A stretch of 64,000 nt of DNA from NCBI GenBank assembly GCA_027487835.1, contig JAIYCU010000044.1, positions 62,001-126,000 on the forward strand. The letters run 5' to 3'. The notes under the pieces are model-generated. The model did not search any database. It was not told the DNA's origin and worked only from the letters and a program-made list of their open reading frames with translations. Each line of letters starts with the position of its first letter. Within the stretch, counting starts at the first letter, position 1. The DNA is from Bacteroidota bacterium (lineage in GTDB: Bacteria > Bacteroidota > Bacteroidia > UKL13-3). Shown piece by piece: positions 1 through 14,812 of this stretch. The translations under genes and the position numbers were made by a program.

Positions 1-2
1 AG

Positions 3-500
3 GATAAGTATCCAACGGCTTTGCGTTTAGAATTAAAGCAACATGCCCAAGTGATTTTGTTAAAAAACGAACCCAACATGCGATGGGTAAATGGCACTTT
101 AGCTAAAGTAGATTTTATCAGCGAAAATTATATTGAAATTCGATTGCAGGATGGCAGTATTCACAAGTTGGAGCCAGCCACTTGGGAGCACCGCAAGTAT
201 GCGTATAATAAGGATACCCGAAAGATTGTATCGGAGGTGGTTGGTACCTTTATGCAATATCCTTTAAAGTTGGCTTGGGCCTTAACCATTCATAAAAGTC
301 AGGGTTTGAGCTTTGACAAAGTGGCCATAGATCTGGGTAGTGGGGCTTTTGTAAACGGTCAAGTGTATACAGCTTTGAGTCGCTGCCGCAGCCTTGAAGG
401 CTTAACCCTTAAACGAAAGTTAAAGTCGTCTGACATCATTGCAGACCAACGGTTACTTGGCTTTTGGATGGCAGAGCAAGTGGTTAGGGATTTGATGTAG
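3..500 (+). CDS. PIF1/RecD-like DNA helicase, C-terminal part (cut by window edge)
   Basis: The frame is open to the left edge, so only the last 165 or so codons are present; a TTG at position 21 is internal, not a start. The visible part is the C-terminal domain of a superfamily 1 helicase of the PIF1/RecD type. It has a section on handling of new DNA sites (QVILLKN near the start, WVNGT just after), then the helicase motif V-like stretch TIHKSQGLSFDKV and the motif VI-like stretch VYTALSRCRS, which includes the arginine that senses ATP. Family role: ATP-driven DNA unwinding in replication or repair. The last 17 bases overlap the end of the convergent recombinase gene. Walker A and B motifs must lie upstream of the window, so the subfamily cannot be fixed. 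Confidence 0.85.
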   Translation, partial: DKYPTALRLELKQHAQVILLKNEPNMRWVNGTLAKVDFISENYIEIRLQDGSIHKLEPATWEHRKYAYNKDTRKIVSEVVGTFMQYPLKLAWALTIHKSQGLSFDKVAIDLGSGAFVNGQVYTALSRCRSLEGLTLKRKLKSSDIIADQRLLGFWMAEQVVRDLM

Positions 501-1404
501 AAGATTTACTCCTTGGATGAAATGTTTGCACCACTTCTCTCAAATATTCTCTGTCTAAATGCGTATAAATTTCGGTGGTGGTGATGCTTTCATGGCCTAG
601 CATTTGTTGCACCGCGCGCAGGTCGGCACCCGCTTCTACCAAAGCTGTGGCAAAGCTATGGCGCAAGGTATGCGGACTAATATTTTTAGTGATGCCTGCT
701 TTTTGGGCAAGGTCTTTTAGGATATAAAATATCATTACTCGAGTGAGTTTTCCGCCCCTTCGGTTCAAGAATAAAATATCATTGCAACCCGGTTTTGGTG
801 TCATGTGGTTACGTTGTTCTTTGCGGTAAAGATTTATCCAATAAAGGGCAGTTTTGCTTATAGGTACTAGGCGTTCTTTATTGCCTTTGCCTTTTACTTT
901 TATATATTCTTCTTCTTCATAAATATGGGTTTGTTCTAATCCAACGGCTTCGCTCACGCGCAGGCCGCAGCTAAACATGGTTTCTAAAATGGTGCGGTTT
1001 CGCAGGCCTTCTTCCTTGCTCATGTTTATTTGGGCAGCCATGGCATCAATTTCGTGCACGTCTAATACAGCAGGTAAGGCACGCTTTAGTCTAGGAGATT
1101 CTAATAACTCGGCCGGGCTTTTTTGGATTTCATCTTCTTGCAATAAGTAGTTAAAGAATGCTTTGATGCCGCTCACAATGCGGGCTTGGGAGCTAGGTTC
1201 AAGCCCAAGCTCTGAGATGTATTTAACAAAATCTCTTAACTGCTTAAGCTGTATGGTTTTGGGTTGACCCAATTCATTCACTGTGGATAGGTATTGCTCG
1301 AGTTTAGATACATCGCGCAAGTAGCTGTCAATGGTATTAGCCGACAATGATTTTTCTAATTGAAGATAGGCTTTAAAGCCTTTTTGGTAGAGGGTCCAAC
1401 TCAT
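484..1404 (-). CDS. xerD: Site-specific tyrosine recombinase, XerD/XerC type
   Basis: 306 residues, the usual Xer length. An N-terminal core-binding SAM-like domain spans about residues 5-90 and the catalytic domain about 110-295. Catalytic residues visible: Arg149 in the GLRVSEA motif, the lysine of the KGKGNKERLVP beta-hairpin (171-181), His245 and Arg248 in HTLRHSFAT, His271 in LGHES, and the nucleophile Tyr280. Xer recombinases resolve chromosome dimers at dif with a partner and FtsK. No dif-like site or second xer gene is seen here. XerC and XerD are hard to separate by eye; the symbol follows the usual Bacteroidota naming of this ~300-residue form. The gene is convergent with the helicase and overlaps it by 17 nt. 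Confidence 0.9.
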   Translation of the reverse strand: MSWTLYQKGFKAYLQLEKSLSANTIDSYLRDVSKLEQYLSTVNELGQPKTIQLKQLRDFVKYISELGLEPSSQARIVSGIKAFFNYLLQEDEIQKSPAELLESPRLKRALPAVLDVHEIDAMAAQINMSKEEGLRNRTILETMFSCGLRVSEAVGLEQTHIYEEEEYIKVKGKGNKERLVPISKTALYWINLYRKEQRNHMTPKPGCNDILFLNRRGGKLTRVMIFYILKDLAQKAGITKNISPHTLRHSFATALVEAGADLRAVQQMLGHESITTTEIYTHLDREYLREVVQTFHPRSKSSTSNP

Positions 1405-1419
1405 GGGTTAAACATAAAA

Positions 1420-1447
1420 AAAGTCCCGACAAATTTGCCGGGACTTT
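1420..1447 (-). terminator. Intrinsic terminator of the thioredoxin-like lipoprotein gene
   Basis: A perfect 9-bp stem (AAAGTCCCG at 1420-1428 with CGGGACTTT at 1439-1447) around a 10-nt loop. Read on the minus strand it is followed by a run of seven T, just downstream of the stop at 1469. Confidence 0.85.
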
Positions 1448-1468
1448 CTATTTCTTTAAAGCGATTGC

Positions 1469-2290
1469 TTATTTGAAGTGGATATAAGAAGAGTTGCTCA
1501 TAGTAAAACCAGAAGCACCTTTTTTCCAGATACAAGCTACAACAGCAAGATTTTCTTTTTTGAAAGTTGGTTGAATAAAGAAGTTCAATTCTTTCTTGAA
1601 AGTAGCATCTTTCTTAAGGTCTGAACCTAAAGTTTCGCCAGTGATTGAAGTTCCAAATTTAGCGCGCAATACATTGTAGTGAATGTTCTTTTCAACACTT
1701 GCATCACTTGATTGAGCGTAATCCAATTTATCTTCTAACAAATAACCAGAGATAAAGTATTCACCAGTTACATCTTCAAAGAATTTACCTTCTGCAGTAC
1801 AAACTAAAATACCATCTACTTCTTTAACAGAAAGTACAGCATTAACTTTAGCTTTCTTAGCAGCTTGTGTATTTACATGGCCAATTGCAGTTGTACCAGT
1901 TGAAGTGCTACCACCAATCATTGCTACAAATGGATCTTCGTTAGCACCAATGTACATTGCAGGTACACCAGATGGGTTAAATATACCGATTAAAGAGTTT
2001 GCATCAGCGTTAGTCATTGGATCATTTCCAACTTGTGCAGAGATGATAACTGCTTTTCCAGCAGTTTGTGCTTTGATTTGCTCTTTAGCTGGTTTGCCAT
2101 AAGCACCACATGGAGGGCACCAAGTACCACCAAAATAAATTACTGTTGATTTTTGTTCTTGAGGAACAACGGTTCCAGCATTACCACCATTGTTTTTGTT
2201 TTCTTCGCTGCTGTCATCTTTTTTACATGCAGTTAGCGTAAGAGAAAGACCAACTAAAATGGCCATTGAGGTTTTGAAAAACTTTTTCAT
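1469..2290 (-). CDS. Omp28-like lipoprotein with thioredoxin fold
   Basis: 273 residues. The N-terminus is a lipoprotein signal with the lipobox cysteine at residue 22 (LTLTAC), followed by a charged, Asn/Gly-rich linker (23-45). Residues 48 to about 140 look like a thioredoxin-like domain with the redox motif WCPPC (Cys58 and Cys61). The C-terminal half (about 150-273) resembles the beta-rich part of Bacteroidota Omp28-type proteins. A membrane-anchored disulfide handling or redox role is inferred; the substrate is unknown. The gene stands alone, with its own promoter (2332-2361) and terminator (1420-1447). Confidence 0.8.
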   Translation of the reverse strand: MKKFFKTSMAILVGLSLTLTACKKDDSSEENKNNGGNAGTVVPQEQKSTVIYFGGTWCPPCGAYGKPAKEQIKAQTAGKAVIISAQVGNDPMTNADANSLIGIFNPSGVPAMYIGANEDPFVAMIGGSTSTGTTAIGHVNTQAAKKAKVNAVLSVKEVDGILVCTAEGKFFEDVTGEYFISGYLLEDKLDYAQSSDASVEKNIHYNVLRAKFGTSITGETLGSDLKKDATFKKELNFFIQPTFKKENLAVVACIWKKGASGFTMSNSSYIHFK

Positions 2291-2331
2291 ATTTTTAGTT
2301 TATTGGGTTTTATTTAAAATATTTAGACCTT

Positions 2332-2361
2332 CAAATTTTAACAAAAGTTGCATATAAACAA
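2332..2361 (-). promoter_or_regulatory. Bacteroidota-type promoter for the thioredoxin-like lipoprotein
   Basis: On the minus strand, TTG (2361-2359) is followed by an 18-nt spacer and TAAAATTTG (2340-2332), close to the -33 TTG and -7 TAnnTTTG elements. One extra base in the -7 box lowers the score. It lies about 40 nt upstream of the start codon. Confidence 0.45.
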
Positions 2362-2397
2362 GTAAAATGTTAAATATTCCTAAATAAAGTTAATTTC

Positions 2398-3252
2398 CTA
2401 TTTTGAAACTCTCAAACTGAGGTCGATACTTTTAGAGGAATGGGTGAGTGCCCCAACAGAGATAAAGTCGACACCACTAGCTGCATAGTCTTGAATGCTT
2501 TCTAATGTAATGCCGCCAGAGGCCTCTGTTTCGTATTTTTTGTCGATAAGCGCAATGGCATCTTTTAATTGATTTGGGGTAAAGTTGTCAAGCATAATGC
2601 GGTGGATACCCCCCAAACTTAGCACTTCTTTAACTTCTTCAAGGTTGCGGGTCTCAATTTCAATTTTAAGGTCGAGCCCCTTAAATTTTAAATATTGGTG
2701 TGTTTTTTCTATGGCTTGTGCGATACCACCTGCAAAATCAATATGGTTATCTTTAATCATAATCATATCATACAATCCAATTCTATGGTTAGATGAACCT
2801 CCTAAGCGCACGGCCCATTTTTCTAAAAGTCGCATACCTGGGGTAGTTTTACGTGTATCTAAAACAGTGGTATGATAATCTTTTAGCAAATCACTTATTT
2901 TTCTGCTTTGTGTTGCAATACCACTCAAGCGTTGCATAAAGTTAAGAACCAATCTTTCCGCTGTTAGGATGCTAATATCAGAGCCAAAGATGTCAAAAAT
3001 GAGGTCGCCTTTCTTAATATTTTCACCATCCTTTACTTTAGGTTCAAACCGAAGCCCCGGATCTATTCTCTTGAAAATATAACCTGCCAAATCAATTCCC
3101 GCAATCACGCCATCTTCTTTTGCAATGCAGTAAGCATGGCCCATTTTATCTCCTGGGATGCAGGCTAGTGAGCTATGGTCGCCATTGCCAATATCTTCTC
3201 TGATTGCAATTTCAACCAGTTCTTTTATATCTTGTTGTTGTAATAATTCCAT
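2398..3252 (-). CDS. nadC: Nicotinate-nucleotide pyrophosphorylase (carboxylating)
   Basis: 284 residues, normal length for NadC (quinolinate phosphoribosyltransferase). It turns quinolinate and PRPP into nicotinate mononucleotide, CO2 and pyrophosphate in NAD synthesis. The N-terminal open-face sandwich domain starts with EDIGNGDHSS. The barrel domain carries the signature DTRKTTPGMR, then NHRIGLYDMIMIKDNH, with the arginine, histidine and lysine residues that bind quinolinate and PRPP. The EASGG motif near the C-terminus (around residue 245) fits the phosphate loop. The gene starts 6 nt after the end of hutH, so the two are almost surely co-transcribed. nadA and nadB are not in the window; nadK lies far away at 57.3 kb. 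Confidence 0.96.
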   Translation of the reverse strand: MELLQQQDIKELVEIAIREDIGNGDHSSLACIPGDKMGHAYCIAKEDGVIAGIDLAGYIFKRIDPGLRFEPKVKDGENIKKGDLIFDIFGSDISILTAERLVLNFMQRLSGIATQSRKISDLLKDYHTTVLDTRKTTPGMRLLEKWAVRLGGSSNHRIGLYDMIMIKDNHIDFAGGIAQAIEKTHQYLKFKGLDLKIEIETRNLEEVKEVLSLGGIHRIMLDNFTPNQLKDAIALIDKKYETEASGGITLESIQDYAASGVDFISVGALTHSSKSIDLSLRVSK

Positions 3253-3258
3253 TTTTTC

Positions 3259-4770
3259 TTAATTGGCGGGTAGCCTTTTGTTTCTTATAAAATTCACAGA
3301 AGCAATGATGTCATCATGCAAAAGTCTATCTTCTTCTAATTTAGGTACAATTTCTCTGTATTCTTCCATCAAAGTGCTAATAAGTGTTGAACTCATTAAC
3401 GGCTTTCTAAATTCTAAGGCTTGGGTAGCGCACATCCACTCGATGCCGAGAATAGTAAATACATTGTCTAATACCCTTAGGGCTTTGGTAGCAGCGTTGG
3501 CGCCCATGCTCACATGATCTTCTTGTCCATTACTGCTTACAATACTATCAACAACAGCTGGCGTGCAAAGTTGTTTATTCTGACTCACAATACCTGCTGC
3601 GGTATATTGTGGAATCATAAAGCCGCTGTTGAGTCCAGGGTTTGCAGTGAGAAAAGGAGGGAGTCCACGTTGGCCAGAAATTAATTGATAGGTTCTTCTT
3701 TCGCTGATGTTTCCCCATTCTGCCATGGCAATGGCTAAAAAGTCTAAGGCCAAGGCAAGGGGTTGTCCATGAAAATTACCACCCGAAATAATTTTATCCT
3801 CGTCGGGGAAAACTAAAGGATTATCTGTTACAGCCTCAAACTCTGTAATCACGGTAATCTTTGCAAAGGCAACTGCATCCCTTGAGGCGCCATGTACTTG
3901 TGGAATGCACCTAAATGAATAGGGATCTTGAACACTGGTTTTAGGCGCTATCGCCAATTGGCTGTCTTGTAAAATTCTGCGAATATTATTGGCTACTACA
4001 ATTTGTCCATCATGACCGCGGGCTTTATGGACAAGGTCGGTAAAAGGTTCTAACCTGCAATTAAACGCATCAATAGAAGCACTGGCAATTACATTGGCCC
4101 AAGCTGAAAGATTGGCTACTTCTATAATTAAGAACAGGGCATATGCCGTCATAAACTGTGTGCCATTGATGAGTGCAAGTCCTTCTTTTGCTTGCAACAC
4201 AATGGGTTCCCAGCCATTTTCTTTGAGCACAATCGCTGCATCTTTTATAACAAAATTATCGTTCTCTTTTACCCAAACTTTTCCTTTGCCAATTAATGGC
4301 AAACATAAATGCGCTAATGGCGCTAAATCGCCGCTGGCACCAAGAGAGCCTTGTTCAAATACAACAGGTAATATATTATTATTATGAAAATCAATTAAGC
4401 GTTCAACAGTTTGCAATTGCACCCCACTAAGTCCAAAACTAAGTCCTTGCACTTTTAATAAAAGCATCAACTTAATAAGTTTATGCGGCACCTGTGCACC
4501 AGTGCCACATGCGTGAGAGAGTAATAAGTTTTCTTGCAGTTTACTTAATTCATCTTTAGAAACTACAGTATCACATAAGGAGCCAAAGCCAGTATTGATG
4601 CCATAAAAAGCTTCGTTGCTGTTCTTTAGTTTTTGATCGAGGTAATTTCTACCCTTTATTATGTTTGCTTTGGCTTCTGGGTGTAATTTGATAGGTAAAT
4701 CTTGCAATACAGCGTGCGTAAGGTCATTGTATCCATTTTCTGGGTTGCCTATTTCAAAATATATTTCCAT
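3259..4770 (-). CDS. hutH: Histidine ammonia-lyase
   Basis: 503 residues, the typical length. It removes ammonia from histidine to give urocanate. The self-made MIO cofactor comes from Ala145-Ser146-Gly147 in GSLGASGDLAP. The catalytic tyrosine region AFYGINTGFG is at 55-63. The related tyrosine 2,3-aminomutases and tyrosine or phenylalanine ammonia-lyases share the fold, so substrate is inferred from overall resemblance to HutH. No hutU, hutI or hutG/F gene lies next to it. Instead it sits 8 nt downstream of hisS and 6 nt upstream of nadC, an unusual place for a degradative enzyme. Confidence 0.88.
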   Translation of the reverse strand: MEIYFEIGNPENGYNDLTHAVLQDLPIKLHPEAKANIIKGRNYLDQKLKNSNEAFYGINTGFGSLCDTVVSKDELSKLQENLLLSHACGTGAQVPHKLIKLMLLLKVQGLSFGLSGVQLQTVERLIDFHNNNILPVVFEQGSLGASGDLAPLAHLCLPLIGKGKVWVKENDNFVIKDAAIVLKENGWEPIVLQAKEGLALINGTQFMTAYALFLIIEVANLSAWANVIASASIDAFNCRLEPFTDLVHKARGHDGQIVVANNIRRILQDSQLAIAPKTSVQDPYSFRCIPQVHGASRDAVAFAKITVITEFEAVTDNPLVFPDEDKIISGGNFHGQPLALALDFLAIAMAEWGNISERRTYQLISGQRGLPPFLTANPGLNSGFMIPQYTAAGIVSQNKQLCTPAVVDSIVSSNGQEDHVSMGANAATKALRVLDNVFTILGIEWMCATQALEFRKPLMSSTLISTLMEEYREIVPKLEEDRLLHDDIIASVNFIRNKRLPAN

Positions 4771-4778
4771 GGGATAAA

Positions 4779-6203
4779 TTATAATTGATGGTATAATTCG
4801 GCAGCACTCAATTCTATTTGGGTGCCGCTGTTTAAGTCTTTTCTTACATACTTGCCACTTTCCATTTCATTGCTGCCAATAATTACAGCAAATTGAATTT
4901 GATTTTTATCGGCATATTCTAATTGCTTGGCAATTTTCTTGGTAATATCAGGATATACTTCTGCTGCGATATTTTGTTTCCTTGCTTCTGCACAAAGCTT
5001 AATGGCGTGCAAGCGGGTAGCTTCATCAAAGTGACAAAAGAGTAATATGGTTTCTTTCTTTTTCAGGTTTTCTGGAAATAGTTTTAACTCATCCATTACA
5101 TCATATATCCTATCCAAGCCAAATGAAATACCCACACCCGAAACGTCGGGTAGCCCAAAGATGCCTGTTAGGTTATCATACCTGCCACCGCCGCCAATGC
5201 TAGGTTTAAATGTGCCTGCATTGGCTACCACTTCCACAATGGCACCTGTATAGTAGGTTAAACCTCTTGCTAGGGTTACATCAATTTGAATGGGATTATT
5301 ACGCCCAAGTATTTGGGTATAGGTAAAGATTTCTTCGAGTTCTTGAACGCCTGTTAAGCCTTCTGGTATTTCAGCAAAAAACTGCTTTAGAATAGGTAAT
5401 ATGTTTTCTGATTTACTAATGCTCAAAAATTCCAATACCAAGGTAGATTGTGTTTGGTTAAAACCAGCTTTTTCTAAATCTGTGAGTAGGCCGCTTTCAC
5501 CCGTTTTATCTAGTTTATCAAGCGCTACGGTAAGGGCAATAAATTTATCTTCTGCATGTATTTTAGTAGCTAAGGCAGCTAACAACTTTCTATTATTGAT
5601 GCGAATTATAACAGGAATATTTAGGTAACTAAAGGCTTCATCATACATCTTTAGCAATTCTGCCTCATTAATTAGACTTTTTGAACCAATCACATCTGCG
5701 TCACATTGCCAAAACTCGCGGTAGCGTCCCTTTTGAGGTCTGTCGGCGCGCCACACAGGCTGCATTTGAAAGCGTTTAAAAGGAAAAGTAATGTCATTTC
5801 TGTTCATTACAACATAACGCGCAAAGGGTACGGTAAGGTCGTAACGCAAGCCTTTTTCAGCAATAAACGGAAGTGAGTTTTTGCTATCTAAAGCATTTAC
5901 CTTTCCGTTAATGGAGGGCAAATAGGTTTGATCCAACTCTTCATGCCCTTCTGCTTGGTCTTGGTATTCTCTCAGTTTTTTGAAATAGTCGCCAGAATTA
6001 AGTACCTTAAATAGTAGTTGATCTCCTTCATCCCCATATTTTCCAGTGAGGGTTTGGAGGTACTCCATGGTAGGCGTTTCTAGAGGCATATAGCCATATT
6101 TAACAAATACTTGTTCAATGGTTTGAAGAATATGTTTGCGTCTTCTAACCATCAACGCGTCAAAGTCGCGCGTGCCTTGTGGTATTGTGGGTTTTGCTGC
6201 CAT
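4779..6203 (-). CDS. hisS: Histidyl-tRNA synthetase
   Basis: 474 residues, slightly longer than the common 420-460. A class II synthetase that charges tRNA-His. Motif 1 lies within the first 60 residues. Motif 2 covers about 141-169 (FQMQPVWRADRP then FWQCD). The histidine-specific HisA-type stretch LARGLTYYTG and the SIGGGGRYDNL loop follow, and motif 3 is in GVGISFGLDR. The C-terminal anticodon-binding domain runs over the last 100 residues. A short insert near 80-105 accounts for the extra length. It is 28 nt downstream of the DUF4293 gene and 8 nt upstream of hutH, so it is probably part of a multi-gene transcript. Confidence 0.96.
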   Translation of the reverse strand: MAAKPTIPQGTRDFDALMVRRRKHILQTIEQVFVKYGYMPLETPTMEYLQTLTGKYGDEGDQLLFKVLNSGDYFKKLREYQDQAEGHEELDQTYLPSINGKVNALDSKNSLPFIAEKGLRYDLTVPFARYVVMNRNDITFPFKRFQMQPVWRADRPQKGRYREFWQCDADVIGSKSLINEAELLKMYDEAFSYLNIPVIIRINNRKLLAALATKIHAEDKFIALTVALDKLDKTGESGLLTDLEKAGFNQTQSTLVLEFLSISKSENILPILKQFFAEIPEGLTGVQELEEIFTYTQILGRNNPIQIDVTLARGLTYYTGAIVEVVANAGTFKPSIGGGGRYDNLTGIFGLPDVSGVGISFGLDRIYDVMDELKLFPENLKKKETILLFCHFDEATRLHAIKLCAEARKQNIAAEVYPDITKKIAKQLEYADKNQIQFAVIIGSNEMESGKYVRKDLNSGTQIELSAAELYHQL

Positions 6204-6231
6204 TACAGCTTGCGAATATAGTCAAAAAGAC

Positions 6232-6717
6232 TTATCTCAGCCTGTCGGCGCTTTTTACAAGGGCTTCATCTTTTTTAATCAAGTAAAATACCCTGATATT
6301 GAGGTATAAAACAAATAGAATGAGTGCGATGCCAATGATGGACGAGGTCATTAATTTTTCGCCGCTAAAATTGGGAGCATATAAATAGGCTTTGGTAAAA
6401 AAAGTTGCCAAAAGCGACACCAAGGCTAACATATTAATCAGGGTGAATTTCATTTGTTTTACCCTATTTGTGTAGCTAAAAAGAGTATATAGGCTCAAAC
6501 CAATTACAATACTTGCAATTAGGATTAAACCAATTTGCAAATGACTTTCAATCAAAACGCCGTTTTCAAGTTTGTTAAAGTAAAATAGGTTCAACACATA
6601 TTCTGTAGTTTTTATATTGGTTTCAACCGTAACAAAATGCAAAACCTTAATACTACAGAGCACCGCCACAATGGCAATAATCATTACTAAAAAAACAGAT
6701 TGAATTCTTTGTATCAT
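6232..6717 (-). CDS. DUF4293 family membrane protein
   Basis: 161 residues, four predicted membrane segments (about 6-26, 60-82, 95-115, 122-145). The opening MIQRIQSVFLV is typical of the DUF4293 family, which is restricted to Bacteroidota and has no known function. It sits upstream of hisS with a 28-nt gap. Family assignment rests on the N-terminal signature and topology. No catalytic motif is visible. Confidence 0.75.
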   Translation of the reverse strand: MIQRIQSVFLVMIIAIVAVLCSIKVLHFVTVETNIKTTEYVLNLFYFNKLENGVLIESHLQIGLILIASIVIGLSLYTLFSYTNRVKQMKFTLINMLALVSLLATFFTKAYLYAPNFSGEKLMTSSIIGIALILFVLYLNIRVFYLIKKDEALVKSADRLR

Positions 6718-6787
6718 ATTGCAAAGGAATTAAATCTAATGGTTATAACAAACAACTTTTGCCAATTTTGATAGGTGTTTCAAAAGT

Positions 6788-8149
6788 TTAAATTTTGCTT
6801 ACCCACCTCAATAGTTTTACTTTCCAATTGCTGTGTGGGTAGTATTTTAAGTTTGGTTCAAACCAACTTGGTTTTTTAAGGATGCTTTTAAAATGCGAAA
6901 AGGCTTTAAAACCATACTCTCCATGGTAGCTACCAAAACCACTATTGCCCACGCCTCCAAAAGGTAAATGATGGTTTGTTAAATGCATAATTCCTTCATT
7001 AATGGTGCCTCCACCAAATGAAATTTCGCTGCTTATTTTTTCAGTTTCTGTTGTATTTTCAGAAAATACATAGCAAGCCAAGGGCTTAGGTAATTGCTTA
7101 ATTAGACCAATTGCTTCTTCTAAATTTTGGTAGCTAAGAATGGGCAAAATGGGTCCAAAAATCTCTTCTTCCATTATTTTGTCCATCTTGCTAACATCAG
7201 TCATGAGGGTGGGTTCAATCCAACGTTCTTCTCTATTGTGCTTGCCTCCATAGACCACTTTTTTGGGGTCAAGTAAGGCTATTAAACGTTCAAAATTACG
7301 ATGGTTTACAATTTGCACATAATTGCCATTTTCTATTTTTATTTGTTGGGCTTCAATTTCATAAATTAATGCCTTCACAAATGCTTCTTTTATTGCGGTT
7401 TGAACCAAAACATAATCTGGTGCAACGCAGGTTTGGCCTGCGTTTAAAAACTTAGACCATACAATTCTTTTGGCGCTTAAGGCTAAATTGCAATGTTGGC
7501 TCACAATTGCCGGACTCTTACCTCCTAATTCTAGGGTAACAGGTGTTAAATGTTTAGCAGCAGCTTCATACACAATTCTGCCCACGCCTGTGCTTCCAGT
7601 AAAAAAGATTTTATCGAATTTTTCAGCCAATAAAGCACTTGTTTCTGGCACGCCACCTTCTACCACTGTAAGATAATTTGGTTCAAAATACGTTTCTGCC
7701 AATTTCTTAATGGCTTTGCTGCTGTTTAAGGCAAGTTCGCTGGGTTTGATGATAACAGTATTGCCAGCTGCCATGGCTGCTATGGCTGGCGCAAAACAAA
7801 GTTGAAAGGGGTAATTCCAGGCGCCTATGATTAAACAAACGCCTAAAGGTTCAGTTAAAATATAGCTTCTGCCGGGAAAATTAATTAGGTTGGTGGCTAC
7901 TTTTTGTGGACTGGCCCATTTGGAAAGTTTTGCAATACAAGTGTCAATTTCTATGAATAACAAAGCCAGTTCATTGCTTAAGTTATCGAAAGCAGACTTT
8001 TTAAAGTCTTGGTAAATGGCACGTGCCAGGTTTTCCTCTTCCTCTTTAAGCGCTTTTCGCAGGGTTATTAGTTGGGAAATTCTAAAGTCGATTGACTTAG
8101 TTTTACCTGTTTCGAAAAAGACTTGTTGTTGACTTATAATTGCTTTCAT
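6788..8149 (-). CDS. Aldehyde dehydrogenase, class 3-like
   Basis: 453 residues, the short ALDH form lacking the tetramer-forming extension. It oxidises an aldehyde to the acid with NAD(P)+. Visible residues: Asn111 in WNYP, the cofactor-binding KPSE (135-138) and GSTGVG (185-190), general base Glu207 in LELGGKSP, and nucleophile Cys241 in AGQTCVAPD. EEIFGPILP follows near residue 330. The C-terminal stretch (about 430-453) is basic and slightly hydrophobic. The substrate is unknown; class 3 enzymes often act on fatty or aromatic aldehydes. A 70-nt gap separates it from DUF4293 and 24 nt from the unrelated gene before it. Confidence 0.93.
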   Translation of the reverse strand: MKAIISQQQVFFETGKTKSIDFRISQLITLRKALKEEEENLARAIYQDFKKSAFDNLSNELALLFIEIDTCIAKLSKWASPQKVATNLINFPGRSYILTEPLGVCLIIGAWNYPFQLCFAPAIAAMAAGNTVIIKPSELALNSSKAIKKLAETYFEPNYLTVVEGGVPETSALLAEKFDKIFFTGSTGVGRIVYEAAAKHLTPVTLELGGKSPAIVSQHCNLALSAKRIVWSKFLNAGQTCVAPDYVLVQTAIKEAFVKALIYEIEAQQIKIENGNYVQIVNHRNFERLIALLDPKKVVYGGKHNREERWIEPTLMTDVSKMDKIMEEEIFGPILPILSYQNLEEAIGLIKQLPKPLACYVFSENTTETEKISSEISFGGGTINEGIMHLTNHHLPFGGVGNSGFGSYHGEYGFKAFSHFKSILKKPSWFEPNLKYYPHSNWKVKLLRWVSKI

Positions 8150-8173
8150 GTGAAAATGCTTATTCCTTTTGTA

Positions 8174-9034
8174 TTATTCTAGTTTAATAGATTTAAACGC
8201 CTCAAAGTACAGGTTGTTTTGGGCTTCGTTTTTGGCCTTAGCAATTTCAACAGCGCTTTTTGCATTGCCAAAATAAAAGTGAGGTACATAATATACCCAA
8301 AAAAGCGCTGCTTGCGGCCAATTGTAAAAATGTGCCGTAACAACAGTTGCTGTAATGAGCCCACCGTTCAATAGGATGGCATTGCCTGCATTGCTAAAGT
8401 CTTTCATATATAATTGTCCTAAACCTGGTAGGATTGAACTTAGTGTTTTGATAGAATTTAATTTATAGGGTGAATGGTTTTGATATGACTTAATGAGACT
8501 ATCTATAACAGCACTTGCCTTTTCAGTTTGTGTAAATTTTATTAATTCATTGGCTGTATTTATGGCATCTTGTTTTCGTTCTAATTGTATTTCTGATAGG
8601 AGTTTGAAATAAATTAAATTAGCTTGAATTTGTTGATTGGTATTAAAAGTATCTATTATAAGTTCTTCTGTTTTATCTATGCAAGTCTCCCATTGTTCCA
8701 AGTTGAAAATAGCAGCAATTCCTATGAGCAATTCTTCTGTTGAAAGGCTTATTTCAGCATTTTCTTTTGGGTAAAAAATTATTTGTTTTAAGGGGTAAAA
8801 TTGTTTGGTTTCAAACATGGCTAGAATATACTTACTTGCCATTTTTTGTTTTATTTCGCTGTCACCAAAGAACCAAATACGATGGTAAATCTTAGTTGCT
8901 TCTGCATACTGCTTTGCTTCAAACAAACTATCACCTTTTTGTAAAAACGAAGTTAAATCTTGGGCATTAAGCTTCCCTATAAAATTAACAAGCAACAGAA
9001 AAGTAACTTGTATAAAGATTTTTCTTAAGTTCAT
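8174..9034 (-). CDS. Exported TPR-like protein with C-terminal membrane segments
   Basis: 286 residues. A signal peptide ends near residue 24 (LNAQ). Residues 28-190 are helical and TPR-like (GDSLFEAKQYAEATKIYHR is the clearest repeat). Around 200 comes the motif SILPGLGQLYMKD, then two hydrophobic segments (about 213-255) and a charged tail. The PGxGQ-Y motif recalls DUF5683/TM2-type membrane proteins, but I do not assign the family. It is a distant relative of the next gene upstream (same order of parts, ILPGSGK in place of ILPGLGQ), and its first 50 bases overlap that gene. Function unknown; the pair may have come from duplication. Confidence 0.7.
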   Translation of the reverse strand: MNLRKIFIQVTFLLLVNFIGKLNAQDLTSFLQKGDSLFEAKQYAEATKIYHRIWFFGDSEIKQKMASKYILAMFETKQFYPLKQIIFYPKENAEISLSTEELLIGIAAIFNLEQWETCIDKTEELIIDTFNTNQQIQANLIYFKLLSEIQLERKQDAINTANELIKFTQTEKASAVIDSLIKSYQNHSPYKLNSIKTLSSILPGLGQLYMKDFSNAGNAILLNGGLITATVVTAHFYNWPQAALFWVYYVPHFYFGNAKSAVEIAKAKNEAQNNLYFEAFKSIKLE

Positions 9035-9794
9035 TTTTGTAGAATTGAATTTTAAAATTCTTTTTTCTTTTTATGAGGTTTTTTGTGCCGATAATGTTTC
9101 CTAAATAAAAGGCAGTACCCATCACAGCATTTGTCCAAGCAAATACAGAGCGAATCCCATATTGATTAAATGCATAAAAACTAAGATAGGTGTGTGCACT
9201 CACAACAAATAATTGGCTGAAGCCTTGCATATATTCTCTAAGAAGAAGTTTGCCACTACCTGGCAAAATAGCTGCTGCTGTCATGTATTTAGTAGGATTA
9301 ATATCTGCGGCTTGTTGCATGTTTTTTAACACTCCTAAATAATAATTGCTATCTATGCTTGAACCTAAACTTTGAATGATGCCATAACAAGAGTCATATT
9401 TTTCTAATAATAGGAGGGTTCGAATTTTTAAATCTGCATCTAGAAGTTCCATTTTAGGGATTAATAAATGAGCAGAATCTTGTGTTAAACAAATGGCTGC
9501 TACTTGTTCTAAAAGAACAGTGGAAATAGTTTGCTTTTCCAGAAGAGAAGTGATAGTGGTAAATAGTAATTCATTATTATTAATGGCATAAAGACAATGC
9601 AGGTATAATGGCAAAATAGAATCAAAATGGTTATTGCTTAAGTGCGGTTCAAGGGCTTCAATTGCCAATGCATATTCATGCTCACAAATTAGTTGTTTGG
9701 CAAATTGATAGGAGTGTATTTTGTCAAAAATATCTTGTGCCATCGCTGGCATAAAGGAGAATATTAGTAAAAATGGAAAAAGGATTTTTCTCAT
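8985..9794 (-). CDS. Exported helical-repeat membrane protein, relative of its neighbour
   Basis: 269 residues. Signal peptide to about residue 19 (AMAQ). Helical-repeat region about 25-165 with a YALAIEAL repeat. AAILPGSGKLLLREY near 175 is followed by two hydrophobic segments (about 188-230) and a basic end (KRKKNFKIQFYKN). Domain order matches the 286-residue protein encoded just downstream, whose start lies 50 nt inside this gene. It overlaps the YidD-like gene upstream by 4 nt (9791-9794). The three genes form a tight unit. No known function; a role in the envelope is inferred from the signal and membrane parts. Confidence 0.7.
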   Translation of the reverse strand: MRKILFPFLLIFSFMPAMAQDIFDKIHSYQFAKQLICEHEYALAIEALEPHLSNNHFDSILPLYLHCLYAINNNELLFTTITSLLEKQTISTVLLEQVAAICLTQDSAHLLIPKMELLDADLKIRTLLLLEKYDSCYGIIQSLGSSIDSNYYLGVLKNMQQAADINPTKYMTAAAILPGSGKLLLREYMQGFSQLFVVSAHTYLSFYAFNQYGIRSVFAWTNAVMGTAFYLGNIIGTKNLIKRKKNFKIQFYKNELKKNLYTSYFSVAC

Positions 9795-10150
9795 GGAAGG
9801 TCAATTGCTTTTCCTTGTGCATTAAAAAAATGGTCTTCAAAGTGTCCATTGCACCTAATAAGTCTGTCAGTAGTGAGAATTATTCCAAGAAATAGATGAT
9901 GTTTTATAATGGCTAGTTTAGCATAATGCGAACAAGAAGGCGCAAATTGGCAGGAAGACCCATCTTGAGATGAAACATATCTTTTGTAGAATCCATGAAG
10001 ACCGCTGTATGTATTTTGGAATTGAACCGATTTATTAGGCAAGTGAATTAAATTGCTTTTGAGCGTAATCGCTTGGCTCAAACCAATCCATGGAAAGCCA
10101 ATTAAAACTATGTTAACAAAAATTAATTTAGAAAAAAATCTAATAATCAT
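9791..10150 (-). CDS. yidD: YidD-like membrane protein insertion efficiency factor with signal-like N-terminus
   Basis: About 119 residues from the ATG at 10150. A longer reading from 10180 would leave 3 nt to the divergent gene and is less likely. After a hydrophobic segment (about 5-25) comes the YidD core: GFYKRYVSS, then SSCQFAPSCSHYAKLAI with the paired cysteines of the family, then LTTDRLIRCNG with the conserved arginines and cysteine. Known YidD proteins are small membrane-associated proteins near yidC, rpmH and rnpA that assist membrane protein insertion. Here none of those genes is nearby and the partners are two exported helical-repeat proteins, so this is probably a specialised copy rather than the housekeeping one. 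Confidence 0.75.
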   Translation of the reverse strand: MIIRFFSKLIFVNIVLIGFPWIGLSQAITLKSNLIHLPNKSVQFQNTYSGLHGFYKRYVSSQDGSSCQFAPSCSHYAKLAIIKHHLFLGIILTTDRLIRCNGHFEDHFFNAQGKAIDLP

Positions 10151-10183
10151 ATTTTGCAATATAATTACATTTAAAACCAAAGC

Positions 10184-11848
10184 ATGAAAAAATTACTTTT
10201 ACTAATTGTTATCTCCTTTTCCTTTATAAAATTACAGGCGCAAGATCAAGACCGAATAGAGTTTGATATTGATAATATAACTTATGCTGAATTTAAGTTG
10301 GTGCCAATTGGTTCAGATGGGGCGATAGTTATTTATTACGCAAAAGGTGAAGATAAGAAAGCAGTTCCTAGCTATAACATGAAAAAAATTGATGTTAATT
10401 TTAAGCAAACTGGGAAGGGTGTTATTATTCCGCAAGCAGGGGAGCGATTAGCAGAGGTAGTAACAGATAATGCAAATGTATATGCACTATTTATGAGTGG
10501 TATTACGAAGCATTACTCAATAGTTAAAATTGATAAAGCTACTCTTAAAACTACTGTTTATCGCGAGAATAATGAAAAGTACATGCAATTTGATGCAATG
10601 GAAACGCTGAATGGTCAGGTAAATTTAAGTGTTAAACTTGTGCCAAATCCTACTACTGAAATGCTTATTGGATGTATTTCTATGCCCCTATGTTTTATAC
10701 CCTATTTGTTGTACAAGCCAAAATTTTATTTAAACGTACACGCTGTTGATTTTAATAAAAAAACAGCTACAAAAAAGGAACTTACTTTAGCTGGGGGTAA
10801 AAAATTAAGATTGAATTATCTTGATTTCACTAAAAATGATTCACTAGGCGTTTTTGACGTTATGTATAGCATTTCAAGTAATAAAGTTGAAGATAAACGT
10901 GTAGTTATCCGTGAAATAAACAAAGGAAATGCAAGTAAGGAGAAAGTAATTAAGCTGCCCAATGGAAAAGATGTTTACAGCGGAAGGGTATTTAGTTTGT
11001 CTGCAACAGAAAAATTAGTTTTCGGTCAATTTAAAGTAAATACAAAAGGGAAAAGTAGCAAAGAAAGAAAGGCTGCAAAAACCCAAGCCCCTGGAGGCTT
11101 TTTTATTACAATTGTTGAAAATGATAAACAGACTTTCACTAAACTTACTCCATTTAGCACCTTTAAAAATTTTACCATGAGCATCCCAAGTGCTAGTAAA
11201 TCAAAGAAAGAATCTAAAGGGAAATCAAAAACAAAAGCAAAAAGAGATAGAATGCTTCAATCCATTCTCTCTTTTGCCTTTCATAATGTAATTGTTAGAG
11301 ATGATGAAATTATAATTGTTGCAGAGCCTTATTACCCAACTTATCATACAGAGTACCGTGTTGTATATGTTAATGGTAAACCCACTACACAAGCTGTAAC
11401 TGTTTTTGATGGATATAGATTTTTAGGTGTTGTGGTAATTGCCTATGATTTAGAAGGGAATTTTAAATGGGAGAATGGGTTCAAAATTGCTAATGGCCCA
11501 CTTTCTTTCTCTACTAAATGCAAATTCGATTATTATGAAGTGGAAGACGATGGATTTAAAATTGTTTACAATGCAATGGGTAAAATTTACTCAAAAATAA
11601 TTTACAACGACAAAGTAGCTGACGAAGTAGAATTAACTAAAGTTTCAACTAAGACGACGGATAAAAAAGTAGTTAACTACGGATCGAGGGTTACTGAAAT
11701 GAGCGGCACAGATTATTGGTATGATAATTATTACCTAGCTTTCGGCATTCAAACCATTACGGCCGATAAAAAAGCTGCTAAGAAAAATGAAGACGATAAA
11801 AAGAAGCGTAAAGTGTTTTACCTAAATAGAATCGAGATTGAAAACTAA
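10184..11848 (+). CDS. Exported protein of unknown function
   Basis: 554 residues. Signal peptide MKKLLLLIVISFSFIKLQAQ, cleaved after about residue 20. The rest reads as a mostly beta-structured secreted protein with short hydrophobic segment near 165-180 (CISMPLCFIPYLLY) and two lysine-rich patches (around 295-310 and 340-360). A propeller-like or WD-like repeat cannot be made out with confidence. I do not recognise a family. It is the first of three overlapping plus-strand genes: the stop overlaps the TTG start of the M48 peptidase gene. It is divergent from the YidD-like gene with about 33 nt between starts, so at least one promoter must overlap coding sequence. Confidence 0.7.
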   Translation: MKKLLLLIVISFSFIKLQAQDQDRIEFDIDNITYAEFKLVPIGSDGAIVIYYAKGEDKKAVPSYNMKKIDVNFKQTGKGVIIPQAGERLAEVVTDNANVYALFMSGITKHYSIVKIDKATLKTTVYRENNEKYMQFDAMETLNGQVNLSVKLVPNPTTEMLIGCISMPLCFIPYLLYKPKFYLNVHAVDFNKKTATKKELTLAGGKKLRLNYLDFTKNDSLGVFDVMYSISSNKVEDKRVVIREINKGNASKEKVIKLPNGKDVYSGRVFSLSATEKLVFGQFKVNTKGKSSKERKAAKTQAPGGFFITIVENDKQTFTKLTPFSTFKNFTMSIPSASKSKKESKGKSKTKAKRDRMLQSILSFAFHNVIVRDDEIIIVAEPYYPTYHTEYRVVYVNGKPTTQAVTVFDGYRFLGVVVIAYDLEGNFKWENGFKIANGPLSFSTKCKFDYYEVEDDGFKIVYNAMGKIYSKIIYNDKVADEVELTKVSTKTTDKKVVNYGSRVTEMSGTDYWYDNYYLAFGIQTITADKKAAKKNEDDKKKRKVFYLNRIEIEN

Positions 11849-14093
11849 TTTATTAAGCCTGGCTTGGCTTTGTCTCATCCCATTCTTACTGAATGCACAA
11901 ACATATAAGCATTATTTTAAGGCAACTTACCCTTTAGGAAATGAGTTTACAAATAGAGCTAGTATTTTAGAAAACATAGAGGTTGAAAAGCCAATAAAAA
12001 GCACCAAGGTTGATTACAAAGTTTTTAAAGAATCTAATGATTACTTTATTGATCGCTTCCTAAATTCGGGAAAAGTAATTGCCTACAGTAAAGCCAATCT
12101 TTACTTAGATAGGGTAGCCGATAAGTTGTTGCAAAACGACCCAGCCCTTAGGGCAAAAGTTAAGTTTTACTTTGTATATACAACTGAGGTGAATGCTTTT
12201 ACGTTTACCAATGGGATGATTTTTGTGAACATTGGACTTTTGGCTCGCTTAGATAATGAAGCCCAATTGGCATTTATAATGGCCCATGAAATAGCTCATT
12301 ATAAAAAGAAGCATGCCTTTGAACGTTATAAGTTTAGAACAGAGTCGGAAGTGAAGGAAATAGACGAAGAGGAGTTTCTGGAAGTGGTGTTAAGTAAGTT
12401 CTCTAAAGACCAAGAGTTTGAAGCTGACAAGATTGGTTTTGAGATTTATAAAAACTCAGGATATTATTTAAACGAATCGGTTCAGACATTTGAGATTTTA
12501 AAGTTTGCTGAATATCCAGTTGAAAATTTAAGAATTGAAAAGAATGTGTTTGAAGGGCAGTTTTTAAAAATCCCTCAAGGCTTTTATTCCGACTCTAGCT
12601 ACCAAGCGGTTTTTAATGAGAATGATACTTCCCTTACACATCCTAGCAGTGTAAAACGCCAAGAGGCTTTAAGGGCGCAAATTGCGGCAACACCTGCCGC
12701 ACCAACTGGAAAATTTTTAGTGAATGAACAAATGTTTTATGAACTAAAACTTGCTTCTCAATTTGCTTTAAGTGAGATTTATATCAATGAGAGAGATTTT
12801 ATTAGTTCCTTGTATAATACCGAACGACTTTTACTAAAGTATCCTGCAAATGAAACGCTATTAGAGCAAAAAGTTCAAGCCTTATATTTTCTAGTTGCCA
12901 ATATTAATTTTGGTTCTAAAAGTTCAGTCATTAGAAGACCTCAGAAGATTCAAGGCGAAATAAAAAAGTTTCATCAACTCTTTAAGAACTTGAGTAAAAA
13001 AGAAGCAAATACGCTTGCTTTAAGGTTGGTTTGGGATATTTATTTAAAATACCCATCGGATGTAATCATAAAAGAATTTACTAAAAAGGTTACCAAGCAC
13101 TTTATTATTTCAGTGGGCAAAGACCTCAGTATTTTTGAAAAAAGAGAAGCTTATAACCAATATCTAATTGATTCTGTTTATTCATTAAAAGTTGAATTAG
13201 ATAAACAAGTGAAAAGGGCAAGTACCAAAAATAGCTCTAGCGCAGTGGTTAAAAAGACTCAAAAGGTTGGGAAAGACTTTTTTGTGAAGTATGCAATTCC
13301 TGATTTAATCGAGAACCAAGAGTTTAAGTCAGTTTTCAATGAATTAGTGAAAGAAGTTGAAAACGAAGCTGTAATGCTTGAAGAGGAAGAATCAGAACTT
13401 TTAGAAAATGAAAACGGAGCATCAAGTGGAAGTTCAACCACTCGAAAGGCTAAGAAAAAGAAATCTTCAAAGAAGTTAGTGAATGAAGGAAAGCCAGTAG
13501 TGCAATTAGATAAATTACTTGTTATTGAAATTAGCAATATAAACCTCGACTTATCATCGGGCAATCCAGTTAAGTTTTTCGCTATTAAGAACAAGCAAAA
13601 GGAATTAGTTAATACCATTCAAACCTGTGCGAAAATGAATGGTATTGAATTGGTGGTTTTTAATCCAGGGGATTTGGCTGAAAATGATACTGCTTTCTTT
13701 AATGATAGAAGTGTTTTAGAGAATTGGAAAGGTACTTGTGTAGCTAATAATTTAAATGAAATGCTACCTTCCAACTATCTAGAGGTTTCAGATATCTGTG
13801 AAAAGTATGGAACACGCTATGTTACTTTTATAAATACGCAAACCATCATTATTCCAGAAAATCAGTCATACTATTTTCTAAATATGCTTTACACTGCCTA
13901 TAACCCTCCATTATTTGTAGTGGCAATGGTTGCTGTTTTTAGAAATAGAAGATATAGCGCCCTACAAATGCCAATTTATGATATTATGACGGGTAAATTG
14001 GTAAGCGACTTTGCCTTTGAATACGATGTGCCAGATCATTCTGATTTTATGAAGGCTGAATTTTATTCTATTTTTAATACCATTCGGAAATGA
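11838..14093 (+). CDS. Exported M48-family zinc metallopeptidase with long C-terminal region
   Basis: 751 residues from a TTG start that overlaps the previous gene by 11 nt. The start is supported because a signal peptide (MKTNLLSLAW to LLNAQ, residue 21) begins exactly there. The M48 catalytic domain covers about 75-270: zinc motif HEIAH (150-154) and third ligand Glu195 in FEADKIG. Downstream (about 300-450) is a helical, TPR-like part, then an acidic Ser/Lys-rich linker (about 500-535), then a 200-residue C-terminal domain that I do not recognise. M48 proteases such as BepA act in envelope quality control; the same role here is inferred. Ends in an ATGA overlap with the next gene. Confidence 0.85.
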   Translation: MKTNLLSLAWLCLIPFLLNAQTYKHYFKATYPLGNEFTNRASILENIEVEKPIKSTKVDYKVFKESNDYFIDRFLNSGKVIAYSKANLYLDRVADKLLQNDPALRAKVKFYFVYTTEVNAFTFTNGMIFVNIGLLARLDNEAQLAFIMAHEIAHYKKKHAFERYKFRTESEVKEIDEEEFLEVVLSKFSKDQEFEADKIGFEIYKNSGYYLNESVQTFEILKFAEYPVENLRIEKNVFEGQFLKIPQGFYSDSSYQAVFNENDTSLTHPSSVKRQEALRAQIAATPAAPTGKFLVNEQMFYELKLASQFALSEIYINERDFISSLYNTERLLLKYPANETLLEQKVQALYFLVANINFGSKSSVIRRPQKIQGEIKKFHQLFKNLSKKEANTLALRLVWDIYLKYPSDVIIKEFTKKVTKHFIISVGKDLSIFEKREAYNQYLIDSVYSLKVELDKQVKRASTKNSSSAVVKKTQKVGKDFFVKYAIPDLIENQEFKSVFNELVKEVENEAVMLEEEESELLENENGASSGSSTTRKAKKKKSSKKLVNEGKPVVQLDKLLVIEISNINLDLSSGNPVKFFAIKNKQKELVNTIQTCAKMNGIELVVFNPGDLAENDTAFFNDRSVLENWKGTCVANNLNEMLPSNYLEVSDICEKYGTRYVTFINTQTIIIPENQSYYFLNMLYTAYNPPLFVVAMVAVFRNRRYSALQMPIYDIMTGKLVSDFAFEYDVPDHSDFMKAEFYSIFNTIRK

Positions 14094-14812
14094 AATTAAC
14101 TGATAAAATTTTACTAACTTTTCTATTTATTACATACTGCTATGCAGTTGCTAACGCGCAGCGGGTTTCAGGTTATTTAGGAAAGCGCACTTTTGTTGGA
14201 ACTTCAATTGTATATATCCCAAATGTCTTTCGCTTTGGTAATTCTTCAGCTGGTATTGATTACAGAAATATCAGTAAATTTTACATGCTCAATTCTTTAA
14301 AATATGGATTGAGTGTTGGATATGCCTTAAACAATGATAAATCTTTGATAGTTGATTTGGATTATCAAAGACTTGGACTCTTAGATAATACGGCTTCTGA
14401 AATACGAGGTTCCTATGATCCTCTTGACTTTTTGTATGCAAGAAGCACTGCAATTGGCCTTAAGGTGAAAGTACAAAATTCGGTTCAGTTTTGCGCACCT
14501 ATTGGTGCCTATAAAGGTCTATCATTTGGTTTACACCAATACAATAACTCTTACTTAAATACACAAAAGGAGGAGAAATATTTCTCGCCAGTTTATGATG
14601 CTTCAATTGGATTTACTGGAGGTGTTAGAAGGGTATATAAAGATAAATTTATGCTAGACTTAGGTGTAGACTTGAATTTACACATACGTTTAATTGGCTC
14701 TATGCTTATGGCCGATGACGACATCGAGAAAATAGCTAAGAAATATGCAATCAGGAAAAATGGATATAATAATATCCTATCCTGCAAAGCCGCTCTTTAT
14801 TATCTCTTGTAA
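14090..14812 (+). CDS. Small outer-membrane beta-barrel-like protein
   Basis: 240 residues. Signal peptide to about 23 (VANAQ). The rest alternates polar and hydrophobic residues with many aromatic girdle residues and glycine turns, the look of an 8-10 strand barrel; it ends AALYYLL. No family is recognised. The ATG overlaps the TGA of the M48 gene (ATGA), which implies translational coupling. It is the last gene of the three-gene unit and ends just before a bidirectional terminator. Confidence 0.7.
   Translation: MKLTDKILLTFLFITYCYAVANAQRVSGYLGKRTFVGTSIVYIPNVFRFGNSSAGIDYRNISKFYMLNSLKYGLSVGYALNNDKSLIVDLDYQRLGLLDNTASEIRGSYDPLDFLYARSTAIGLKVKVQNSVQFCAPIGAYKGLSFGLHQYNNSYLNTQKEEKYFSPVYDASIGFTGGVRRVYKDKFMLDLGVDLNLHIRLIGSMLMADDDIEKIAKKYAIRKNGYNNILSCKAALYYLL

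Follow-up and report, generated by a model that had tools for sequence, protein, structure and literature searches.

The window analysed here, a 64,000-nucleotide stretch of the genome of a Bacteroidota bacterium (UKL13-3 lineage; GenBank assembly GCA_027487835.1, contig JAIYCU010000044.1, positions 62,001 to 126,000), contains three overlapping genes that encode an exported 554-residue protein (A554), an M48 metallopeptidase with an additional C-terminal domain (CTD), and a small β-barrel-like protein (BAR). We propose with moderate confidence that this locus specifies a BepA-like protease/chaperone module that is docked to the outer membrane (OM), is provided with a dedicated barrel and, in some lineages, with a propeller, and would serve in OM-protein assembly or quality control. 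The proposal draws on the order of the genes and how widely it is conserved, on zinc motifs, predicted folds, and lipobox cysteines, and on the equivalence of fused and split forms of the CTD. The module was not found described in the open-access literature that we searched, and no part clearly matched a described system as a whole. An earlier sequence-only reading had suggested an undescribed envelope quality-control or secretion system; quality control is still the best guess, secretion has become a minority reading, and the parts are less strange than was thought.

The M48 and barrel genes form a conserved pair

A barrel gene was located within two genes of the M48 gene at 75 of the 89 distinct places that carry a CTD-bearing (fused) M48 gene; it was next on the same strand in 69, two genes on in one, and beside the M48 gene in divergent orientation in five. 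The association read from the window thus extends to relatives, as far as the M48–barrel pair is concerned. When the first set is left aside, 65 fused loci remain: a barrel gene stood within two genes in 52, none was found in 12, and one locus ended at a contig edge. The barrel profile, built from 27 barrel genes of these same loci, had 97 matches among 1212 open reading frames (ORFs); just two of them stood at a greater distance than two genes from M48, both in loci with further barrel copies. Eleven loci present twice were removed before the M48, CTD, barrel, and split-form counts, though not before the A554 hhalign counts given below.

In the class, the M48 profile detected relatives at E ≤ 1e-30 in at least 118 of 395 genomes and at least 73 of 196 genera, a lower bound because two candidates were scored per genome, and one that includes split and other short forms. 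A search of the genome contigs by peptide patterns returned two close loci only. The quick tree computed from 111 M48 regions has long branches, and 44 of its 108 inner branches are well supported. Each of the three forms, fused (90), split (16), and M48–propeller (5), fell on one side of a branch, with support of 89, 67, and 99, respectively.

The C-terminal domain has a predicted OM-associated fold and occurs in fused and split forms

The CTD of the window protein had been set down at first as a domain of about 200 residues that could not be recognised. Profile searches gave no usable direct match: the comparison of its sequence with solved structures yielded nothing meaningful (best E 0.15, unrelated), and no Pfam family was recognised in more than one of 24 CTDs. 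Structure alignment did recognise it, and a new fold was rejected. The predicted model, of β-α-β-α-α-β-β-β-α topology, matched HpaA (VIA-align Z 10.1; 145 residues, rmsd 5.4), PelC (Z 9.1; 127 residues, rmsd 3.4), and FlgT (Z 8.5) best, followed by TolB (7.7), CsgG (7.4), PqiC (7.3), GNA1162 (6.4), LpoB (6.2), TraT (6.2), and LptE (6.1), with 5–20% identity in the alignments. All of the fold Z-scores reported here rest on predicted models, and the VIA-align list re-ranks the 1000 best of Foldseek. Because a Z-score below 8 can reflect a common arrangement, we rely on HpaA, PelC, and FlgT and on the consistency of the matches as a whole. Most of the matched proteins are OM lipoproteins or OM-associated periplasmic domains. 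The modelled CTD has the same fold as a set of OM lipoproteins and docking domains of the periplasm (HpaA, PelC, FlgT, the N-terminal domain of TolB, and CsgG), and for this reason we read it as a domain that would dock at the OM.

At 16 loci the module is split: an M48 gene for 455–492 residues is followed by a separate gene for 186–249 residues. These short M48 proteins of other genomes end near the place where the linker of the window protein begins. A lipobox-like cysteine was present at the end of the signal sequence in 16 of 16 separate CTD genes (11 by the strict pattern, three by a relaxed pattern or by eye, plus L185 and L191; L numbers denote loci). Eight of the 16 genes matched the CTD profile at E ≤ 1e-3 (best 8.6e-31) and three more at 1.1e-3 to 1.8e-2. 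For the four founding split lipoproteins (L051, L053, L057, L058), the only match to the CTD came from hhalign (probability 82, pairwise E 1e-5), and the separate genes of L182 and L184 matched solely through the profile of these four. The gene after the lipoprotein encoded a barrel in 14 of 16 cases; in L181 it was an unmatched 250-residue gene, and in L182 the contig ends. The gene order M48–lipoprotein–barrel of the split loci therefore equals the M48–CTD–barrel order of domains and genes in the fused form.

A lipobox-like start was found in four of 90 fused M48 proteins, and the window protein has none. In 72 of 89 fused proteins, the hydropathy of the CTD peaks at one fixed place, that of residues 676–700 in the window protein, where the 19-residue stretch of highest hydrophobicity has a mean of at least 1.0; it contains a proline in 71 of these 72. 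We propose that this segment is a hairpin that dips into the membrane and takes over from the lipid anchor. Some separate lipoproteins also have a comparable stretch (L190 and L193; elsewhere in the chain in L051–L058). The exchange of hairpin and lipid between fused and split forms appears, from the sequences compared, to be a tendency, not a rule.

The M48 protein resembles BepA with an added linker and CTD

The only Pfam family detected in the 751-residue protein was PF01435 (E 1.2e-22; 81.1 bits, above the curated cut-off of 20.3), and its closest solved structures by sequence were BepA and the Geobacter M48 protein 3c37. Its predicted model (pLDDT 78.5, pTM 0.80) aligned to BepA over residues 44–338 with a Z-score of 17.6; the alignment stops at residue 338, and the model helices span 297–448. 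The parts named in the sequence-only reading were recovered, namely the helices (297–448), a linker (451–553), and a CTD of 198 residues. The linker, then called acidic, is acidic first and then basic, in a region of low confidence. Linker and CTD are extra relative to BepA, in agreement with the earlier remark that the CTD is absent from the standard protein.

HExxH was present in 107 of 111 M48 relatives at distinct places, and 103 had both HExxH and the E..AD-type glutamate motif. HPx(3-5)R was present in 106 of 111. By analogy with BepA-type M48 proteins, the HPSSVKR motif of the window protein, which aligned to 3c37 by profile, would contain the plug histidine of the active site, as judged from the motif itself rather than from a residue alignment to BepA. 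In BepA, this histidine is H246, according to an excerpt of PMC7950410. The four relatives without HExxH include L048, which reads REIAH, and L177, which reads REAAN; L054 and L055 show neither. The pseudoprotease loci L048, L054, and L055 retain their barrel neighbour.

The genome of the window also encodes a 695-residue membrane M48 protein (L031:8265-10352, contig C8) with N-terminal hydrophobic segments, whose architecture differs from that of the window M48.

BAR is probably an OM barrel

BAR relatives begin alike, with the consensus GYxGK, and also have the motif AP.G.[YF] in common. The last residue was F or Y, as in OM barrels, in 40 of 65 new family members; the window BAR ends in L. 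One member each of the 65 matched OMP_b-brl_2 (1.8e-14), OMP_b-brl (1.4e-9), and OmpA_membrane (9e-4). The window BAR scored 15.4 against the Omp85 profile, below the cut-off of 24, and profile search of its sequence against solved structures found nothing. The family is very divergent, with a mean column identity of 15% over the 65 members. Taken together, these sequence features suggest that BAR is probably an OM β-barrel. In L144 (5666-7954), three tandem barrel-family genes follow one M48 gene.

The one-to-one adjacency of M48 and barrel genes, with short overlaps, would also be expected if the M48 protein were the personal chaperone or protease of the adjoining barrel, which would then be its substrate and not its partner. 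BepA does act on particular OM proteins, BamA and LptD, according to an excerpt of PMC13067283. Yet the pairing persists while the barrel family diverges strongly, pseudoproteases keep their barrel, and an OM-docking domain together with a propeller exceeds the needs of a maturase with a single substrate. We consider such a maturation pair unlikely.

PelC and CsgG, both matched by the CTD, are parts of OM export systems, and the barrel invariably has a dedicated gene of its own. These points would fit an export device, in which the CTD forms a ring at the OM as PelC and CsgG do, the barrel is the conduit, and the M48 protein processes the exported substrate. However, a barrel of 220–280 residues corresponds to about 8–10 strands, for which the pore would be too narrow; no conserved substrate gene was seen among the neighbour genes scanned, and the same fold is found in proteins that do not export (TolB, LpoB, LptE). 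An export function thus appears quite improbable, and OM-protein assembly or quality control is the reading that we retain.

A554 is a predicted β-propeller and the least constant part

A554 had no Pfam or NCBIfam match at E ≤ 1, PF20559 included, and profile search of its sequence against solved structures found nothing, so the earlier statement that it lacks a recognised family holds for direct matches. Its AlphaFold2 model (pLDDT 79.6) is all-β, and the VIA-align matches included the EMC1 propeller (Z 17.5), IFT-A (17.2), and BamB (about 13–15). We therefore predict from the model that A554 is a β-propeller. A lipobox was found in none of 24 family members.

A family without relatives was rejected, as A554 has paralogues in the window's family and distant relatives among DUF6770 (PF20559) proteins. 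The latter are, like A554, exported proteins, of 500–550 residues; DUF6770 was not named in any paper found by our literature search. The two families are tied together through bridging homologues only, in six loci that gave matches to PF20559 as well as to the A554 profile (E 1.9e-11 to 4.1e-6). Across 295 genomes of the class, DUF6770 genes exceeded the family cut-off at 15 distinct places, and an M48 gene lay in the flank of seven of them. These DUF6770–M48 pairs differ from the window in having neither CTD nor barrel; such pairs in L201–L221 make up a third arrangement. Within the window's family, DUF6770 proteins follow the M48 gene in L060 and L195.

A554 was compared by hhalign with 192 ORFs of 380–700 residues from loci selected for M48. 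Probability was at least 50 for 11 of 37 immediate same-strand neighbours, a number that includes loci counted twice, and for one of 155 others, which sits two genes from an M48 gene. Distant A554 relatives also stood beside or two genes from M48 genes in other families (L039, L140, L144, L176, L189; probabilities from 96.6 down to 27). In the window's family, the A554 profile matched in 21 of 64 genomes. The gene-order survey proposed from the sequence alone thus gave a divided answer: the M48–barrel pair is conserved, but the full triad was found in only eight genomes, of four genera and all in this family (the window, L032–L034, L035, which is cut by a contig end, L038, L095, and L097). In the other 13 of the 21 genomes, the A554 relative was not seen beside M48. 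The propeller is the least constant part of the module. In L100 (5378-10492), three tandem copies of the A554 family lie away from M48.

Absence of the propeller from most CTD-bearing M48 loci, together with these 13 genomes, could mean that the three genes are neighbours through chance or drift, with no joint function. For M48, CTD, and barrel, this is largely refuted by the adjacency in 75 of 89 places and by the matching order of split and fused forms, which cannot be chance, and the propeller is enriched beside M48 in several families. We regard chance association as extremely unlikely. The recurrence of propeller–protease pairs lacking CTD and barrel (five loci, and the seven of 15 DUF6770 places) would fit signalling, in which the propeller or the barrel senses the state of the envelope and the M48 protein cuts a signalling protein. 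However, no sigma/anti-sigma or two-component family was among the 25 commonest neighbour families, and all of the parts are exported, which makes signalling very improbable.

Layout and surroundings of the locus

The ORFs and features of the locus are listed in Table 1. All three genes were placed as the sequence-only reading had them, with a TTG start 11 nt inside the first gene (overlap 11838–11848) followed by an ATGA overlap of M48 and BAR genes (14090–14093). Each product has a hydrophobic, signal-like N-terminus ending in AQ, as read from the sequence. All four other same-genus loci that hold the first junction (L032–L035) have a TTG start with an 11- or 17-nt overlap into the upstream gene. 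In L038 and L097, the M48 gene has an ATG start after a gap of 23–24 nt, so the coupling is not universal.

Table 1. Genes, domains, and motifs of the window locus, and positions of the M48 relatives that lack HExxH.
Feature	Position	Strand	Basis
A554, 554-aa exported protein, predicted periplasmic β-propeller, distant DUF6770 relative	10184..11848	+	ORF, ATG start; AlphaFold2 model
751-aa exported M48 metallopeptidase (TPR-like helices, linker, CTD)	11838..14093	+	ORF, TTG start; Pfam PF01435
HEIAH zinc motif, residues 150-154	12285..12299	+	Motif reading
EFEAD motif, residues 193-197, presumed third zinc ligand E193	12414..12428	+	Motif reading
HPSSVKR, residues 268-274, putative plug-histidine place of BepA-type M48	12639..12659	+	Motif
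Helical TPR-like region, residues 297-448	12726..13181	+	Model helices
Linker, residues 451-553, acidic then basic, largely low-confidence	13188..13496	+	pLDDT <50 at 451-478 and 524-553
CTD, residues 554-751 (198 residues), predicted HpaA/PelC/FlgT/TolB-N/CsgG-like fold	13497..14090	+	VIA-align on model
Hydrophobic, proline-containing helical segment, residues 676-700	13863..13937	+	Model helices 676-685, 690-700
BAR, 240-aa small OM β-barrel-like protein	14090..14812	+	ORF, ATG start; family conserved beside M48
M48 relative without HExxH	L048:7685-10057
M48 relative without HExxH	L177:3437-5680
M48 relative without HExxH	L054:8308-10536
M48 relative without HExxH	L055:7751-9976

The window is part of contig C20 of a 3.4-Mb genome in 46 contigs. 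Upstream of the propeller gene and divergent from it, a minus-strand group (8174-10180) comprises a YidD-family gene (9791-10180; Pfam E 2e-16) and genes for two exported proteins of 286 and 269 residues. Similar-sized genes occupy that divergent position in L032, L033, L034, L038, and L095, the YidD identity being established for the window copy only. The genome has 118 matches to PF18962, a tail family of the type IX secretion system (T9SS), which points to a T9SS bacterium. General Pfam and NCBIfam scans named no T9SS component for A554, M48, or BAR; these scans did not include a one-by-one comparison with T9SS component profiles. A defence system was rejected, as the PADLOC matches were weak (E 0.003 and 0.019) and to protease domains, and so was phage origin, for which the best PHROGs match was the M48 part (E 2e-8).

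Discussion

BepA (YfgC) of E. coli is the best match of the window M48 protein in both sequence and fold, and the two have in common the M48 domain, the zinc motifs, the HP..R motif, a helical region predicted after it by the model, and export without a lipobox. The window protein, from a different phylum, adds the linker and the putatively OM-docking CTD and has an obligatory barrel neighbour and a propeller neighbour. In our reading, it works like BepA but is not BepA. The CTD has the fold of HpaA, PelC, FlgT, TolB-N, CsgG, and LpoB (Z 10.1 to 5.9), and its split form is likewise lipoprotein-anchored; it differs from them in its fusion to a protease and its hydrophobic segment, as well as in its low identity. 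The propeller invites comparison with BamB of the E. coli BAM complex, a β-propeller in an OM-biogenesis setting, and with BamI, the propeller of the B. thetaiotaomicron BAM complex according to an excerpt of PMC12578637. However, BamB is an OM lipoprotein, whereas the A554 family has no lipobox; neither BamB nor BamI has a sequence link to A554, propellers are common scaffolds, and the higher fold matches of A554 are unrelated proteins.

Several observations weigh against our proposal. The M48 protein reaches 62.7 bits against the NCBIfam BepA equivalog NF052400, far below the cut-off of 570, and Pfam gave no TPR profile match in it. Four of 111 relatives lack HExxH, so proteolysis may not always be needed, and 17 of 89 fused CTDs have no hydrophobic segment at the usual place. 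Thirteen of the 89 fused loci have no barrel-profile match nearby, although in several of them an exported gene of fitting size occupies that position, and one further locus ends at a contig edge. A CTD-profile search of 395 phylum genomes gave two matches, in an insensitive design that scored at most eight candidates per genome. Besides barrel and propeller, there was no recurrent neighbour: at most four of 148 neighbour proteins shared one Pfam family, in a scan that covered 148 of 191 eligible genes and left out the triad loci L032–L036, L095, and L097. Finally, the two reports on the recently solved Bacteroidota BAM complexes (PMC12611786, PMC12578637) contain the words 'M48' and 'BepA' zero times and do not report an M48 subunit; in excerpts of them, no named component is common with the module.

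The same neighbour scan led us to drop membership in BAM or Lpt by gene context, as no such family recurred and L048 alone has an operon context of this kind. The L048 stretch (1-11573) contains LptD, MlaD, M48 with a divergent barrel, and a DAHP/KDO-8-P-synthase-type gene. PrcB_C (PF14343) was found in four of the 148 neighbour proteins.

In the model that we propose, the M48 catalytic domain and its TPR-like helices would be tethered by the long linker to the CTD, which would sit at the inner face of the OM, held by the hydrophobic hairpin when fused and by a lipid anchor when it is a separate lipoprotein. The CTD would partner the dedicated small OM barrel from the next gene, and in the window's lineage a periplasmic DUF6770-like propeller would join as a scaffold, in the manner of BamB in E. 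coli BAM. The protease would thus be kept where OM proteins insert and could help them to fold or remove stalled ones. We infer the OM location, the physical complex, its substrates, its activity, and its function. Given an OM location and a BepA-like body, supervision of OM-protein insertion would be the most likely task. A more elaborate form of the module is distinctly doubtful: a PelC/CsgG-like ring of CTDs on the inner leaflet, around or beneath the barrel, would gather a ring of M48 protease-chaperones at one OM site. The result would be a gate for assembly or export that is controlled by proteases and peculiar to Bacteroidota, and the propeller would be an optional cap.

A module of this kind, conserved across the class, would be a candidate for the missing arm of OM quality control in Bacteroidota, whose OMs are rich in protein. 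The natural alternation of a separate domain with a lipid anchor and a fused one with the proposed hairpin leads to a direct, testable prediction of its working site, and the pseudoprotease members, in which the barrel is retained, provide a means given by nature to tell chaperone from protease function.

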